Positions 43,720 through 51,032 of a DNA stretch of 64,000 nt are shown one piece after another. The position numbers were made by a program, and so were the translations under genes. The DNA is from Blautia sp. (lineage in GTDB: Bacteria > Bacillota > Clostridia > Lachnospirales > Lachnospiraceae). How positions within the stretch are numbered: position 1 is the first letter of the stretch; each line of letters starts with the position of its first letter. The notes beneath the pieces are model-generated. The model did no database searches and was not told the origin of the DNA. It saw nothing but the letters and a program-made list of their open reading frames with translations. Where the stretch lies: assembly GCA_017463155.1 (NCBI GenBank), contig JAFTPT010000023.1:1-64000 (forward strand), written 5' to 3'.

Positions 43720-44994
43720 TCAGTCTTTCAGACATCCTATCGGAACAATTAGTATTCCGTCTTGCCGTCTGTACGCATATTTGCCATTTGCGGTAAGTAT
43801 CATTCGAAATGCTGGTGCTTTCATCCTGGCGGTATCGATCAAGCCGGCCAGGGATGTCAAAGTCTCAACGCCTTCGTTGATCAGTTTATCTCCGCCCAGC
43901 TTGATCTCAATGAGGCCATATGACCCGTTTCTAAGATGTACTACCGCATCACATTCAAGTCCTGCTTTATTCCTGAAATGATATACGTTTCCACCCAATG
44001 CTTCCGCATATACGCGTAAGTCCCGTACGCACATAGTCTCAAACAGAAAGCCCATCGTCTTCAGATCATCGAGCAGGTCATTGGGGCCAATTCCAAGTGC
44101 TGCTGTTGCGATAGAGGCATCCACAAAATAACGCGTGTCCGACGTTCGGATTGCAGTTTTTGAGCGCAGATTCGGATTCCATGCGGGCATGTCCTCAACA
44201 ACAAAAATCTTCTTCAGAGCGGTCACATAGGAAGCGACCGTTTCTTGATTGATCGGCGTCCCATCGTTCGCTGTTATATCAGCCACTAATGCTGTGTTCG
44301 CTATCTGCTGACCCTGATTTCTGGCCAATGAACGCATCAGGCGTTTTACACGTTCCGGATTCTTCTCTACCCCATCCGCTCGATTGATGTCGGAATGGAC
44401 GACCGCATCATAATAGTCTACCGCCTGATTCAATGCGATCCTCTCCCTCATATCAACGGAACGAGGCCAGCCTCCACGACAGATCAAAAAAGCAATCTGT
44501 TCAAGATCCAGCTCTGCCGCTCCATCGATCTCCGCCTGTCCTGCAAACAGCTTTGACAGGCTCACATCACCTGTCGATTCACCAGACTCAAAAAGGCTCA
44601 TCGGCCGCATCATTAACCAGGAAAATCTCCCCGTGCCAGAATGCATGATTTCTTTCGTATCAGGTGGAACAGCCGAACCGGTAAGAACAAATTGCCCCAT
44701 ATCATCGCGATGATCCACCTCAAAACGGATCGCATCCCACAATTTGGGGGCAATCTGCCATTCGTCAATCAGGCGAGGGGTATCACCCTGAAGCAGCCTC
44801 TTGGGATTCATGGATACCATACTGATATTTTGTTCAATAGCCTGTGGGTCGTCCATATACAGGACGCTCCTGGCAATCTGCTCAGCCGTTGTAGTCTTCC
44901 CACACCATTTGGGGCCTTCGATCAAAACGGCCCCCTTTCCTTCAAGTTTATCCTGCAGTATGGAATCAACCACTCGATTACGATAATTCTTCAT
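43720..44994 (-). CDS. DUF4143-family AAA ATPase
   Basis: 424 residues from ATG 44994, which has GGTGAT upstream; the 30 extra codons beyond it run into the tandem repeats. Walker A is EGPKWCGKTTTAEQ, then the Arg-rich LIDEWQIAPKLWD (Walker-B-like) and TGSAVPP. The C-terminal DUF4143 region ends KAGLECDAVVHLRNGSYGLIEIKLGG, a restriction-like E-x-K motif. The role of this large family is not established. The gene looks more AT-rich than its neighbours and is bracketed by repeats on both sides, which suggests horizontal gain. Confidence 0.9.
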   Translation of the reverse strand: MKNYRNRVVDSILQDKLEGKGAVLIEGPKWCGKTTTAEQIARSVLYMDDPQAIEQNISMVSMNPKRLLQGDTPRLIDEWQIAPKLWDAIRFEVDHRDDMGQFVLTGSAVPPDTKEIMHSGTGRFSWLMMRPMSLFESGESTGDVSLSKLFAGQAEIDGAAELDLEQIAFLICRGGWPRSVDMRERIALNQAVDYYDAVVHSDINRADGVEKNPERVKRLMRSLARNQGQQIANTALVADITANDGTPINQETVASYVTALKKIFVVEDMPAWNPNLRSKTAIRTSDTRYFVDASIATAALGIGPNDLLDDLKTMGFLFETMCVRDLRVYAEALGGNVYHFRNKAGLECDAVVHLRNGSYGLIEIKLGGDKLINEGVETLTSLAGLIDTARMKAPAFRMILTANGKYAYRRQDGILIVPIGCLKD

Positions 44995-45047
44995 AAATAT
45001 CACCCATCTCAAGCTTACCACAAAGCATTGCCCAGGACAAGCAAAAT

Positions 45048-45196
45048 CCGACGATTGGCACATTTTCATTCCGATGATTGGCACGTTTTTATTCCGATTA
45101 TTGGCTCGTTTTTATTCCGATGATTGGCTCGTTTTTATTCCGATGATTGGCACGTTTTCATTCCGACGATTGGCTCGTTTTCATTCCGACAATTGA
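45048..45196 (-). repeat. 23-bp tandem repeat, six copies and a partial seventh
   Basis: Units start at 45048, 45071, 45094, 45117, 45140 and 45163; consensus CCGATGATTGGCWCGTTTT followed by (T/C)ATT. Copies differ at a few positions. The array lies 54 bases upstream of the ATPase start. The period is not a multiple of three, so it is not coding. There are no spacers, so it is not CRISPR. Confidence 0.95.
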
Positions 45197-45814: not shown

Positions 45815-46174
45815 TTATATCCCGCTCACACCCCAATCTTCCGCCACATTCCTGAGTCCGTCCAGAACCTCTTCCCTGGAGTAGTCGTGGTTGTCCAGAA
45901 AGTCCGTATCCATATCGTTCAGATGCAGGTAGAACGTCAGCATCAGCTCCAGGTCATCCCGGGTATCGCCGGCCTCGGTCAGAAGCATGTTCTCGGCCTC
46001 ATTGATGCTGCCCTGGTCCGCCAGGTCCATCACCGTCTCAAAGAGCCGTTCCCTTTCGGGATCTGTGCCCGTCGCCCGGTAATCCGGCATCTTTGCCTCG
46101 CCGAACAGGAGCTTTGTGATCAGCCTCGCCGTGTCCTTTATATTATTGACCATGTAGTCATCCTGATAACCCAT
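45815..46174 (-). CDS. DUF6483-family protein
   Basis: 119 residues from ATG 46174 (AGGAG six nt upstream). All helical by appearance, acidic, without a signal peptide; it begins GYQDDYMVNNIKDTARLITKLLFGE and has a TPR-like middle (DLADQGSINEAENMLL). This is my recollection of the DUF6483 family common in Lachnospiraceae, of unknown function. It lies immediately downstream of the HD-domain gene. Confidence 0.75.
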   Translation of the reverse strand: MGYQDDYMVNNIKDTARLITKLLFGEAKMPDYRATGTDPERERLFETVMDLADQGSINEAENMLLTEAGDTRDDLELMLTFYLHLNDMDTDFLDNHDYSREEVLDGLRNVAEDWGVSGI

Positions 46175-46175
46175 A

Positions 46176-46709
46176 TCATTCTCCTTTGCCGTCCTGCTTT
46201 TTGCCGGACTCCGCAGCTGGATCCGGAGCTTTCCGGGACTGCTCCTCCTCTTCACGCCCGAGCGGTTTCTTTTTACGATGAAAGAGCGTCTCCTTGGCCG
46301 AACAGTACTTGTCCGCCAGACAGACGATCCACGCCTCCTTGTTTTTCGGCACACGTGTGATATTCAGAGGCCACATGTGGCTGTAAATGATCCTGGCCTC
46401 CTTGTCTGAAATATGAAAGCGCTTCCGGGCATTCTCGAGGGCCTTGTCCGCATGGTGATAGCCATGAAGCGGCCGGGTCTCGTCCTTATCATGCCAGTCG
46501 TACAGATAAAAATCATGCAGCATGGCTCCACGCACCAGGGCCTCTTCGTCTCCATGCAGATGCAGGAGCTTATTCAGCCGGCGGCTGGTCCGCGCCACGC
46601 TTTCGCAATGATCGTAGGTCGATACCGAGCCGTGCTGCGTATACTGCTTCATCCGCTGCACCTCCGGATCATTCTTCAGTTTTTCCAAAACCGTATCTGC
46701 TTTATCCAA
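46176..46709 (-). CDS. HD-domain phosphohydrolase-like protein
   Basis: 177 residues. Metal ligands of the HD fold are in [13 protein letters not shown] (His), [10 protein letters not shown] (His-Asp), HGYHHADKA (His) and CLADKYCS (Asp). This single-domain form is common in Clostridia; many act on nucleotides or phosphate esters. The C-terminus is a charged, low-complexity tail ([18 protein letters not shown]). It ends one base before the DUF6483 start and is probably cotranscribed with ThpR upstream. Confidence 0.88.
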
Positions 46710-46731
46710 TCTTATTCTCCCGGATCCTCCG

Positions 46732-47229
46732 TCAGTTCACGGAGAAGATCTCCTTGTACACCGTCTTGCCGTTTTTCTGCTCTGATTTCATGAGCGACAC
46801 TTTTTTGACCGTCATCTCCTGCTTCGGGATCGCAAGCGACGCGGGCCGGCGGCCGGTCACCTTGCGGATGATGGTGATGTGCGGTTCAAATTTGGACCGG
46901 TCATAGGAGACGCCGTTCTTATCCAGCTCCTTTTTGAGGTCGCTTGCATACTTTTTGATCTTCTGGTTCCCTTTGACGCCCACATACAGAAGATCGCCGA
47001 AAAAGCCGTGCCCGTCCAGACTGATCCGGTACTGCTCGAGCGGGACCGCCTGCATGGCCGCCTTGATCCCTTCTATATCGTTCACCTCACCGATAAAGGC
47101 AAGGGTCATATGCAGATTCTGGGCAGGTACATAGTTCCCGCCGAGTCCCAGCTTTTTTGTCTCATGCATGACCTTGATCAGGGCGTTCCTGAGATCGTCC
47201 GATGGCTGCACCGCTAGAAACACTCTCAT
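46732..47229 (-). CDS. thpR: RNA 2',3'-cyclic phosphodiesterase
   Basis: 165 residues from ATG 47229 (AGGAGG six nt upstream). The two His-x-Thr motifs of the 2H phosphoesterase family are visible as [10 protein letters not shown] and HITIIRKV. Normal length. ThpR (LigT) opens 2',3'-cyclic phosphates on RNA ends. Divergent from the adenosine-deaminase-SLOG gene and first in the thpR-HD-DUF6483 set. Confidence 0.93.
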
Positions 47230-47332
47230 AAGCAACCTCCTTATCATCGCCTGTGCCAAAGCGCCCCTGCCTCCTTCTGCTGTGCGGATCGTACGGGCGT
47301 CCGGCATCTGCAGGCACTATTTCACTGTACCC

Positions 47333-47393: not shown

Positions 47394-47422
47394 TTGCCTT
47401 TTGGGCGGCAGTCGGGTATAAT
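47394..47422 (+). promoter_or_regulatory. Promoter of the adenosine-deaminase-SLOG gene
   Basis: TTGCCT and TATAAT with a 17-base spacer, 86 bases before the start codon. Confidence 0.75.
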
Positions 47423-47507
47423 CGGTTCATACCGGAAAGGCAGCTGACACAGCTTCTGCCCGTGCCTGGACAGACAGCCGGACAAAAAAACGCAGGAGGC
47501 CGTCCCC

Positions 47508-49946
47508 ATGATCTTTTTTCAACAGTTTTATCTGGACAGGGAGAAAGACATCGTCGTAGACCTGTATATGGAAGGATCACGCATGTATTTTGTGATCCGA
47601 ACTCCCAATCATCACACGCAGAATCTGATCTGCAATCTGGCAAAGCTCTGTGCTCTCGCCACATCACGGGACCAGAACGGCCTGACCGTGATCCGCGGAG
47701 AGGTGCCCTGCTATATCGACGGCGACAACCGGCAGATGTACATACTCCGGCTGGGGAATACCAAGATCGCCAACATCTATCCCAACGGACAGGTGGAACT
47801 CAAGGCCTCGATCCCCGCCATCTCCAAGACGCTCATGAGCCAGACCAAGGATTACCGCCTGGGGATCGAAAAAACGATCGTGAAGACCTACATCATGAAC
47901 GACTGCAAGTTCCGGACGGACCTGCACACGCACATGAACGGAAACCTCCCCCCGGACGTCCTGATCGCCCTGGGGATCACGCACCAGATCCGCTACCCTT
48001 ACTACTATATCAAAAAGCTGAACCTGAAGTGTACACCATCTCAGCTGGAAGCACTGGAAGAACGGCGCGTCGCGGCGGAACAGAACCTTGGTAGTACGAC
48101 CCTGACCGGGCGTTACCGGGAGCGACGGATCGACGACCTCACCTTTATCAATTTCGCGGATCTGATCCTCGGAAATCCCGGGGATGCCGCCGGCAATATC
48201 GAACGGATCCGGAATTCCCTTACCATCCCGAAGGACGGCCAGGCCGTGTTCGCGGATCTGGAAAAAGTCTATCTGTACCGGTATGTCTTTACCAAAGGCA
48301 GGCGCTACGAGGAGCCTTACAGCGGTATCAACATTGACGGGATCCCGGACCGGGAGGTGGCCGCCTACGCTGCGCGGATGCTGCGCGACCGGGAGGATGA
48401 CCGTTACCGCGGGAATACCCTGTACCAGGATCTGCTCCTGTGGATCGCCCGGATGTACCAGCAATGGGGAATCGAATATGCGGAGATCTCCGACACCTCC
48501 CTCCTGAACCGGATGGAATTTCCTGACAAACTGCGGCAGATCCACGAGGTCATGCCGAACATCACCCGGGAAACCGGCGTGCTTCTCCGGTTTCTGGCCG
48601 GAATCCGGAGGATCCCGCTCACGATCGTACGCGACCAGGTGACGCCCAATGATTATCTTGCCGAAAACCTTCGCTGTCTTAGGGTGATCGCGCCGGACCC
48701 CTATGTGGCCGGCAGCGACATCATCGGTGAAGAGATCAACGATATCATGGAACTCAAAAACGTCATCCGCGAACTGGCAGATATCGCCGGCCGGAATCCG
48801 GGATTCGTGCTGCGCATCCACGCAGGTGAAAATGACAGTCTTCGGGACAACGTGGCAAACAGTATCCACTGCGTGGTGGAAGCACTGCACGAAGGCCAGC
48901 GGATGCCCTTCCTTCGCCTCGGCCATGGTCTGTACACCTGTGACCTGAAAAGCGCCAAGGGCAGAAAGCTGCTGGAGGAAATGCGAAGAACCGGCGTCAC
49001 GCTGGAATTCCAGATCACCTCCAACGTGCGTCTCAATAACCTGAGCCGTCTGGAACGCCACCCTCTTCCCGAATACCTGAAAGCAGGCATCAAATGTGTG
49101 CAGGGCACCGACGGAGGCGCGCTGTACGGGACGAACTCCATCGATGAGGAGCTCAGCCTTGAAAAGCTCCTGGGGCTCACCCACAATGAACTTCGGATGA
49201 TGCGGGAAGCCGAGGACCGGATCCTGCAGGAAAGCTACCGGGTCTTCCGGGATAAACGCGAAAGCTTCCGCCGGGACTGCCCGGGCGGTGATATCGGCAT
49301 CTACTACCAGGTCCGCCTGGAGAATGCCCGACAGCTCACCACGGATCTGTGGCATGATTCCCGGAAGATCGACGCAGAGTCTGCGCTCCATGCACAGCTC
49401 TCCTCCTTTCCGGAAGGACTTTTCCCGATCATTCTGATGGGCGGAAGCTTCAACAACAGCCAGCACCGGACCCGGATCACCGATGACGACCGGACATTTA
49501 TCGACGCCCTGACAGCACACGCGGATCCGCAGCGGGTCTTCTTTGTCGTCGGACACACGCTCTCCGGCCAGGAAGGATACCTGGTCCGAAAGGCCGCCGG
49601 ACGTTTTCGCCTGTTTGCCATCGTGCCGAACCGGATCACGTCCGCCGAAAAAAAACGCCTCACCGCTTCCGGCATCGGCGTACTTGTATCGATCGAGAGC
49701 TCCGGCATGGGCCTGTACAAAAGCTTTGCCTATGAAATATTCAAACGTATGCCCTCCGCGCTCCTGGCCTTCGACGGAAATTCCGCCGCGCTGAACCTGA
49801 TCCAGGAGGCAAGGAACGGAAAGAAAAAATGCAGTATCTATATCAACCCGAAGTCCCGGGGACTTTCCGTCAAGACAAAGCTTCTCAAGGGATATACAAA
49901 ACCTCTCGCGGATGCGGAGGCCCTGCTGCAGGAGCTTCCGTTGTAA
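47508..49946 (+). CDS. Adenosine-deaminase domain fused to a SLOG-like Rossmann domain
   Basis: 812 residues. Residues 1-130 are an N-terminal region I do not recognise. Residues 136-550 form an adenosine/AMP-deaminase barrel. The metal ligands are His140 and His142 (TDLHTHMNGN), His438 (RIHAGEND, with the catalytic Glu441) and Asp535 (GTDGG); TSN lies at 504-506 and HGL at 473. The Asp that follows the zinc Asp in true ADA (TDDP) is Gly here, so substrate specificity may differ. The gap between the HxH and the HAGE is about 300 residues against about 200 in classic ADA. Residues 636-790 are a Rossmann-like domain (IILMGGSFNN ... FFVVGHTLSGQEGYL ... SIESSGMGLYKSF) resembling SLOG nucleotide-sensing domains. 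It has an AGGAGG ribosome binding site. The GH5 gene follows 13 bases later. The role is unknown; a nucleotide-signalling or anti-phage function is possible. Confidence 0.85.
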   Translation: MIFFQQFYLDREKDIVVDLYMEGSRMYFVIRTPNHHTQNLICNLAKLCALATSRDQNGLTVIRGEVPCYIDGDNRQMYILRLGNTKIANIYPNGQVELKASIPAISKTLMSQTKDYRLGIEKTIVKTYIMNDCKFRTDLHTHMNGNLPPDVLIALGITHQIRYPYYYIKKLNLKCTPSQLEALEERRVAAEQNLGSTTLTGRYRERRIDDLTFINFADLILGNPGDAAGNIERIRNSLTIPKDGQAVFADLEKVYLYRYVFTKGRRYEEPYSGINIDGIPDREVAAYAARMLRDREDDRYRGNTLYQDLLLWIARMYQQWGIEYAEISDTSLLNRMEFPDKLRQIHEVMPNITRETGVLLRFLAGIRRIPLTIVRDQVTPNDYLAENLRCLRVIAPDPYVAGSDIIGEEINDIMELKNVIRELADIAGRNPGFVLRIHAGENDSLRDNVANSIHCVVEALHEGQRMPFLRLGHGLYTCDLKSAKGRKLLEEMRRTGVTLEFQITSNVRLNNLSRLERHPLPEYLKAGIKCVQGTDGGALYGTNSIDEELSLEKLLGLTHNELRMMREAEDRILQESYRVFRDKRESFRRDCPGGDIGIYYQVRLENARQLTTDLWHDSRKIDAESALHAQLSSFPEGLFPIILMGGSFNNSQHRTRITDDDRTFIDALTAHADPQRVFFVVGHTLSGQEGYLVRKAAGRFRLFAIVPNRITSAEKKRLTASGIGVLVSIESSGMGLYKSFAYEIFKRMPSALLAFDGNSAALNLIQEARNGKKKCSIYINPKSRGLSVKTKLLKGYTKPLADAEALLQELPL

Positions 49947-49959
49947 GAAAGGAGTCAGC

Positions 49960-50991
49960 ATGATGAGAGAATGGAAAGGATATAAAAAAGGAGTCAACCT
50001 GGGCGGATGGCTTTCACAGTGCCCCCATACCGAAGAACGCTACACGGAATTCATAAAGGAAGAGGATTTTGCGGTGATCAGGGACTGGGGCGTCGACCAT
50101 GTACGCGTCCCGATCGACTATGAACTGGTGGACGGCCCGGAAGAAACACTGATTGAAAGCGGCTGCCGCCATATCGAAGATGCGATCACATGGTGCCGGA
50201 AATACGGTCTCAACATGATCCTTGACCTTCATAAGACCAAAGGATTCTCCTTTGACGTGGGCGAAAGCGAGGCCGGCTTCTTCGAAAGTGAAGCGTATCA
50301 GGAGCATTTTTACCGGCTGTGGGAAAACCTGGCGCAGCGTTTCGGAAAGCATGAGGACATGCTCGCGTTTGAACTGCTGAACGAGGTCACGGACCGCGCA
50401 TACTGCGAGGAGTGGAACCGTATCTCCACGGAATGCATCCGGCATATCCGTGCCAAGACCCCGACGATCCGGATCCTGGTCGGAGGGTATCACAATAACA
50501 GCGTCGAGGCCGTCAAGGACCTGGCCCTGCCTTTTGATGAAAATATCGTCTATAATTTCCATTGCTACGAGCCGCTGATCTTCACGCACCAGGGTGCCTA
50601 CTGGATTCCGGGCATGGACACCTCGTTCCGGATCCCGATCAACGCCTCCTATGGTACCATGAAGCAGAAGACCGAAGAGCTGATCAAAATGAAGTCCGCA
50701 GGCTTTGATGATCTTCCGGACGAGGAAGCGTTGACCGGAGCCTATTTTGAGAAGATCTTTGCGGAAGCCGTCCATGTCGCAGAAGAACGAAACGTCCCGC
50801 TCTACTGCGGTGAGTACGGGGTGATCGATCTTGCCGACCCCGCTGAAACGGTCTCCTGGTACCGCCTGATCCATGCCGCCTTTGAAAAATACGGCATCGG
50901 CCGGGCTGCCTGGAGCTATAAGGAAATGGACTTCGGCCTTGCGGATCCGCGGCTTGACGAAGTACGTGCGGAGATCCTCACGTGTCTGTGA
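49960..50991 (+). CDS. GH5-type glycoside hydrolase (cellulase-like)
   Basis: 343 residues from ATG 49960 (AAAGGAG five nt upstream; ATG 49963 is equally possible). The barrel shows GVNLGGWLS at the start, DHVRVPIDYEL, the acid/base in FELLNEVTD, and the nucleophile in YCGEYGVID. No signal peptide, so it acts in the cytoplasm on oligosaccharides. Same operon position as the deaminase-SLOG gene but no evident functional tie. Confidence 0.9.
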   Translation: MMREWKGYKKGVNLGGWLSQCPHTEERYTEFIKEEDFAVIRDWGVDHVRVPIDYELVDGPEETLIESGCRHIEDAITWCRKYGLNMILDLHKTKGFSFDVGESEAGFFESEAYQEHFYRLWENLAQRFGKHEDMLAFELLNEVTDRAYCEEWNRISTECIRHIRAKTPTIRILVGGYHNNSVEAVKDLALPFDENIVYNFHCYEPLIFTHQGAYWIPGMDTSFRIPINASYGTMKQKTEELIKMKSAGFDDLPDEEALTGAYFEKIFAEAVHVAEERNVPLYCGEYGVIDLADPAETVSWYRLIHAAFEKYGIGRAAWSYKEMDFGLADPRLDEVRAEILTCL

Positions 50992-51006
50992 CCGCGCTCG
51001 GCGCGA

Positions 51007-51032
51007 GTGTCTCGCAAGCGAGACACTTTTTT
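51007..51032 (+). terminator. Rho-independent terminator after the GH5 gene
   Basis: GTGTCTCGC-aa-GCGAGACAC followed by six Ts; it overlaps the last bases of the convergent birA gene. Confidence 0.85.

Follow-up and report, generated by a model that had tools for sequence, protein, structure and literature searches.

An adenosine deaminase barrel fused to a SLOG domain in gut and rumen Clostridia: a probable regulated adenine-nucleotide deaminase

What would a bacterial protein do that joins an adenosine deaminase (ADA) barrel to a C-terminal domain of the SLOG type? The question is raised by a gene in the window, by which we mean the whole 64,000-nucleotide stretch of Blautia sp. DNA analysed here. 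An initial annotation had placed one 812-residue reading frame at 47508-49946, and we found exactly these boundaries, with an ATG start. It could put no name to the domain combination, and the libraries and open-licence literature that we searched supply none either: no description of an ADA-SLOG fusion was found in that literature, and the accessible portions of PMC7159879, PMC12948488 and PMC9704534 make no mention of one. The gene, its putative start signals and its parts are as follows.

47394..47422, + strand: putative promoter-like site TTGCCT-17-TATAAT (pattern match)
47494..47499, + strand: Shine-Dalgarno-like AGGAGG, eight bases 5' of the ADA-SLOG start (read from the sequence)
47508..49946, + strand: ADA-SLOG gene, 812 aa plus stop, ATG start (open reading frame call)
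47508..47885, + strand: N-terminal beta-rich domain, residues 1-126 (model secondary structure; Pfam)
47889..49253, + strand: ADA barrel, residues 128-582
47925..47933, + strand: metal-binding HxH, His140-Thr-His142 (both His in 77/77 sequences)
48030..48419, + strand: helical segment inserted in the barrel, about residues 175-304 (specific to the subfamily)
48819..48830, + strand: HAGE motif with metal ligand His438 and catalytic Glu441 (77/77)
48924..48926, + strand: His473, equivalent of mouse ADA His238 (77/77)
49110..49115, + strand: metal ligand Asp535 followed by Gly536, which corresponds to Asp296 in mouse ADA (each 77/77)
49383..49943, + strand: C-terminal SLOG domain, residues 626-812 (predicted structure and fold matches)

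The barrel is recognisable from sequence. PF00962 (A_deaminase) matches the window protein with an E-value of 3.7e-15 and a score of 56.3 bits (cut-off 27), and is the sole Pfam family found in it at E-values up to 1. We aligned the window protein with 76 homologues free of stop codons, at 58-78% identity (median 71.5). H140, H142, H438, E441, H473 and D535 are identical in all 77 sequences, which bears out the annotated divergent barrel with its metal ligands and catalytic Glu. Asp296, the second Asp of the DD pair, is typical of most members of the ADA superfamily, and most other ADA relatives keep both Asp19 and Asp296. In ADA-SLOG the second Asp of the TDDP motif is G536 in 77/77 sequences, as had been annotated, and the residue at the Asp19 site is Asn in 65 and Ser in 12. 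In four distant members, at 25-28% identity, the catalytic residues and the Gly are retained, and the Asp19 site holds Ala or Ser. The ADA fold was also recovered by VIA-align with the whole model, where canonical ADAs (27.7) ranked above Cad1 (23.9). The protein shares its barrel and catalytic residues with canonical adenosine deaminase (add; TIGR01430) but lacks the second Asp and carries extra domains on both sides, and its TIGR01430 score of 43.7 bits lies far below the equivalog cut-off of 216.55. A barrel insertion of about 100 residues had also been proposed, and the model agrees: some 180 residues separate the HxH strand (137-142) from the next barrel strand (324-329), whereas the corresponding stretch of the solved ADA 6n9m has about 80. 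This insertion is specific to the subfamily, since the distant members are without most of it.

Because the ADA part dominates the list of matches to the whole model, we folded the C-terminal domain alone. The model of residues 626-812 is confident (pLDDT 91.9, pTM 0.90), and all 17 Foldseek matches at E-values up to 0.001 were to DprA, LOG-like, Moco carrier or TRPM structures, in agreement with the VIA-align matches to DprA, TRPM, LOG and Moco carrier. The proposal of a C-terminal SLOG domain thus stands at the level of predicted fold, but Pfam is silent, with no SLOG match in the window protein sequence. LSDAT_prok (SLOG) was matched by two of the three distant members scanned, at 20.1 and 19.3 bits (E-values 4e-4 and 7e-4), below the cut-off of 25.4. 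Fourteen residues of the domain (G645, G646, S647, F648, G682, E689, G735, Y737, K738, S739, E743, G757, N763 and Q766) are identical in 77/77 sequences. The fold is that of the SLOG superfamily (TRPM MHR1/2 LSDAT, DprA, LOG); the differences are the fusion to a deaminase and the want of the LOG phosphoribohydrolase motif, PGGxGTxxE. This motif occurs in 0/77 aligned sequences, the stretch aligned to it by eye being DGNSAALNL in the window protein, and its absence fits ligand binding rather than cleavage of the LOG type.

Throughout the family seen, an ADA barrel with a complete and invariant catalytic set is fused to a SLOG domain whose loops are conserved. With a profile of the SLOG domain we searched 391 genomes of the class, and all 11 matches (in 11/391 genomes, the window's own counted) were to full-length frames of 823-869 aa. 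SLOG alone or on other effectors was found in none of the 391; this profile is narrow and missed the genome of a distant member, so wider SLOG fusions are possible. Two of the distant proteins differ in layout. One (L149:7060-10080) has about 200 extra residues at its C-terminus, where PGDYG is weakly matched (E-value 0.078, below cut-off), and a very divergent member of 895 aa (L151:3686-6373), whose protein has no Pfam SLOG match, has a longer linker between the barrel and the C-terminal domain.

At the other end of the protein, residues 1-126 have no Pfam match above cut-off. The model places strands at 2-31, a helix at 39-47 and strands at 52-98, which is not a Rossmann alternation, and residues 104-126 have pLDDT values below 50. 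The gene had been thought to have its own promoter. The pattern TTGCCT-17-TATAAT is indeed present, but sites of this type number 4 in the region against 3.1 expected from shuffles, which is not above the shuffled sequences. A promoter-like site with at least 9/12 matches is present upstream of 35 of the 76 homologues, as a raw count without shuffle control.

One of the nearest known counterparts is Cad1/CAAD, the CRISPR-associated CARF-adenosine deaminase, which likewise has an ADA barrel with an intact metal site, changed Asp19 and Asp296 positions and a Rossmann-type domain joined to it. However, Cad1 carries an N-terminal CARF domain, whereas ADA-SLOG has a C-terminal SLOG domain, a different N-terminal domain and the barrel insertion; by model secondary structure, the N-terminal CARF (Rossmann) domain of Cad1 is absent from the window protein. 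According to the accessible portions of the Cad1 reports, the two positions in TaqCad1 are Asn549 and Gly264, both listed as ATP-recognising residues, and this enzyme does not deaminate adenosine (PMC12669630); BabCad1 did not act significantly on adenosine, AMP or dATP (PMC11645235). Since both positions at which canonical ADA holds adenosine (Asp19 and Asp296) are replaced in ADA-SLOG, as in the ATP deaminase Cad1, its substrate would be not adenosine but an adenine nucleotide bearing phosphate, such as ATP or some other adenylate.

This argument from sequence is suggestive, not strong. The residues differ between the two proteins, being Asn549 and Gly264 in TaqCad1 and Gly and Asn or Ser here. 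As far as the accessible part of the report goes, TaqCad1 with the canonical residues restored did not regain good adenosine deamination, and its authors consider the two positions not to be the sole or main cause of specificity (PMC12669630); two positions therefore cannot settle the substrate of ADA-SLOG. In the same portion, a change of Asp296 to Asn is described as severely impairing mouse ADA (PMC12669630), so that efficient deamination by ADA-SLOG is not assured.

The SLOG domain would bind a nucleotide or an NAD-derived ligand, its solved relatives including a TRPM region with an ADP-ribose site. In ThsA, SLOG is described as the signal receptor in the part of the report available (PMC10022894). 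By analogy with CARF in Cad1 and SLOG in ThsA, the domain may switch the barrel, and the likely result would be a controlled conversion of adenine to hypoxanthine nucleotides that shifts the purine pool in some condition. Our preferred reading is a metal-dependent deaminase of adenine nucleotides that carries a regulatory domain of its own, to which we give a probability of about 0.5, a defence role being counted inside this figure.

The known defence systems with such domains offer limited parallels. ADA-SLOG is like RdrB of RADAR in being an ADA-type protein with insertions; the accessible portion of the RdrB report describes a metal site formed by a His tetrad, insertions that serve assembly and deamination of ATP and dATP, and mentions no SLOG (PMC9994260). 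That the barrel insertion of ADA-SLOG serves assembly as in RdrB would be a guess by analogy. A likeness to RdrB suggested earlier from the length of about 800 residues was not borne out: no PADLOC RdrB match to the window protein was found at E-values up to 1, and at 1e-10 the 133 direct neighbours scanned include no RdrA ATPase partner. The SIR2 NADase domain and the TIR partner gene of Thoeris ThsA were not found either: PF00962 is the only Pfam family in the protein at E-values up to 1, and no Thoeris model was matched in the 133 scanned neighbours. Models of Cas10 or Csm were found neither among these neighbours, two of which match a generic DEDDh model, nor among 57 window proteins.

We then considered where the family occurs. 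A scan of a collection of 84,980 species with two exact peptide patterns, which misses more distant members, returned 317 stretches encoding a relative. The best 80 of the 317 were retained, and their record titles name Clostridia under a variety of labels, with ruminant gut sites a frequent source. ADA-SLOG apparently represents a family of proteins in gut and rumen Clostridia that has not been described before. In the window's genus, five of the 36 further genomes carry the gene, one of the five partial, and, with the window's own genome counted, carriers number 18/299 in the family, 12/391 in the class and 2/398 in the phylum. The counts for genus and family indicate that the gene is dispensable. 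Carriage is much denser in two genera. In one of the same family as the window (g26), 31/41 sampled genomes and 21/22 of good quality carry the gene, and in one of another family (g668), 20/39 and 13/21. The distant subgroup was found in 4/147 genomes of a further family (2/107 good ones).

These figures bear on the rival that survives best, namely unregulated purine salvage, in which the protein would be a constitutive deaminase of adenosine, AMP or another purine, with a structural SLOG domain and no role in stress or defence. Its near-universal presence in g26 and its frequency in g668 are what a salvage enzyme would lead one to expect. In 20 of the 27 carrier genomes, moreover, no PF00962 protein other than ADA-SLOG was found (at least one more is present in the other 7), which would fit plain salvage as well, and the neighbours of the gene are ordinary (below). 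Further, a yfbR-type 5'-deoxynucleotidase gene (equivalog NF003009) is present in 24 of 25 g26 genomes, 23 of which carry ADA-SLOG, and in four genomes of one g26 branch (including L177, L178 and L179) ADA-SLOG lies directly 3' of it, a possible nucleotide link. However, the Asp19 and Asp296 equivalents are replaced throughout, which speaks against plain adenosine as the substrate, the gene is dispensable, and its position shifts within a genus. We consider salvage without regulation somewhat unlikely. The initial annotation had itself set out the contrary picture of a C-terminal part found in all homologues, a housekeeping salvage role and no defence linkage. Part of this is what we found, with SLOG in every homologue seen and no defence link; the housekeeping salvage role is putative, and the changed active site argues against plain adenosine as the substrate.

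The shift in position was examined in 13 g26 genomes, among which ADA-SLOG identity ranges from 74 to 99% (median 77). At ADA-SLOG, 5/78 genome pairs have a flanking protein in common within about 1.5 kb, compared with 48/78 at purA. In 12 genomes, pairwise identities of purA and yfbR were correlated by rank (rho 0.81, reached by 0/2000 permutations), whereas ADA-SLOG gave 0.20 with purA (permutation share 0.05) and 0.11 with yfbR (0.18). Without the near-duplicate G915 these values were 0.25 (27.5 per 1000 permutations) and 0.15 (0.14), and over all 78 pairs rho with purA was 0.28, or 0.39 on BLAST identities. The correlation of 0.25 without the near-duplicate indicates that some vertical signal remains. 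Together, the flanks and correlations suggest that nearly all g26 genomes keep the gene while its place, and perhaps its allele, changes; these tests rest on the small base of two control genes and 13 genomes, and fast divergence without transfer could also produce the weak correlation. In a tree of 119 sequences, the 13 from g26 share a 14-member clade (support 1.0) with one sequence from another genus, and the eight from g668 form a clade of eight (0.975). These groups are clades or nearly so, which counts against transfer across genera there. The five sequences taken as the window's genus are not a clade, and come together only in one of 86/119 (0.46).

A second rival holds that ADA-SLOG is a stand-alone effector of defence or dormancy, in which a nucleotide signal of stress or infection would act through SLOG on the barrel to convert ATP to ITP, as in Cad1 and RADAR. 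The two substrate positions changed as in Cad1, the receptor role of SLOG in ThsA as described in the accessible part of that report (PMC10022894), the patchiness outside a few genera, the shifting position and the weak tie between divergence and species distance in g26 all agree with this. The neighbouring genes and features in the window include the following.

45815-47307, divergent from ADA-SLOG: RNA 2',3'-cyclic phosphodiesterase (thpR type, TIGR02258 above cut-off), HD and DUF6483 set
49912-50991, same strand: GH5-type cellulase gene, beginning at or just past the end of the deaminase gene
51005-51028: terminator-like hairpin

The deaminase and cellulase genes may be co-transcribed in the window. 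A gene for an AAA_14 plus DUF4143 ATPase lies at 43720-45084. The divergent thpR-HD-DUF6483 set had been taken as a further link to nucleotides or RNA; the three gene types are there, but no homologue of any of them was found within the DNA stretches around the 76 other loci (0/76). The commonest neighbour family at a fixed position occurs at 5 of 77 loci (the 76 and the window; codon-model gene calling), and on this ground we rejected a conserved operon partner. By scripted gene calls, 25/75 loci have a gene on the same strand no more than 60 bases upstream, and 7/75 have one as close downstream.

The 76 related loci have 148 direct neighbours, of which 133 were scanned with PADLOC and Pfam. 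At 1e-10, PADLOC matched 11 models, including mad, AriA and PDC, none of them in more than two members, and the commonest Pfam families were GGDEF (5) and MatE, AI-2E transporter, MgtE and GFO/IDH/MocA (4 each). In the window, 57 of 58 genes were scanned at the same threshold and 13 models were matched, none by the deaminase: mad3 by four proteins, mad8 by three and the rest, including WYL, RmrA, AriA and capH, by one each. We read these matches as probably generic ones to ATPases, transporters and regulators. No recurrent Thoeris-, CBASS- or RADAR-like partner was found among the direct neighbours, and no recurrent signal-making gene near the ADA-SLOG loci. The window protein itself has one weak PADLOC match, to the CARF-ADA model over residues 339-544 of the ADA part (E-value 4.6e-4). 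We rejected this as a defence signal because the model also matches in 6/14 control genomes, E. coli among them, and the suspected defence linkage accordingly found no support here.

Mobile carriage was likewise discarded. Viral contigs yielded no ADA-SLOG relative in scans that detect only contigs with a few conserved peptides, and the matches of six plasmid and two phage records cover no more than 35% of the window protein, at 25-26% identity and at the level of ADA; no plasmid or phage record matches a distant family member. With no defence family recurring beside it, no recurrent signal-making partner, core status in one genus, some vertical signal and two tested genera that are clades or nearly so, a stand-alone defence effector appears unlikely. 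A bolder version is distinctly doubtful: a one-gene ATP/dATP deaminase gated through its C-terminal SLOG by an ADP-ribose-type or other nucleotide messenger, Cad1-like but independent of CRISPR, with a gene that is fixed on the chromosome of some gut Clostridia yet changes place within genera. Alternatively, the barrel might edit signals by deaminating the nucleotide captured by SLOG, for example ADP-ribose or a dinucleotide. The replaced adenosine contacts and the TRPM-type SLOG matches permit this reading, but with no recurrent signal-making partner gene found we hold it to be quite improbable. A two-step nucleotide scavenger, whose barrel would make IMP and whose LOG-like domain would cut off the base, draws on the fold shared with LOG phosphoribohydrolases, but with the motif lacking in 77/77 sequences we rejected a second activity of the LOG type and regard the scheme as highly improbable.

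Within the reading of a regulated adenine-nucleotide deaminase, the core status in one genus, the ordinary neighbours and the absence from mobile records favour control of the purine pool, and the patchiness elsewhere, the shifting position and the changed substrate positions make a role in stress or defence possible. As judged from its sequence, the enzyme probably deaminates an adenine nucleotide and has a built-in domain of a nucleotide-sensing type. An ADA barrel with SLOG is a probable sensor-gated nucleotide deaminase. If this is true, sensor-gated nucleotide deaminases reach beyond CRISPR and RADAR to a chromosomal, stand-alone family of rumen and gut Clostridia, and the different sensor domain would be a second evolutionary way of putting an ADA barrel under the control of a ligand. 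A testable prediction about the substrate would follow. On a metabolic reading too, bacterial purine metabolism would gain a deaminase of nucleotides or purines with an unusual architecture.
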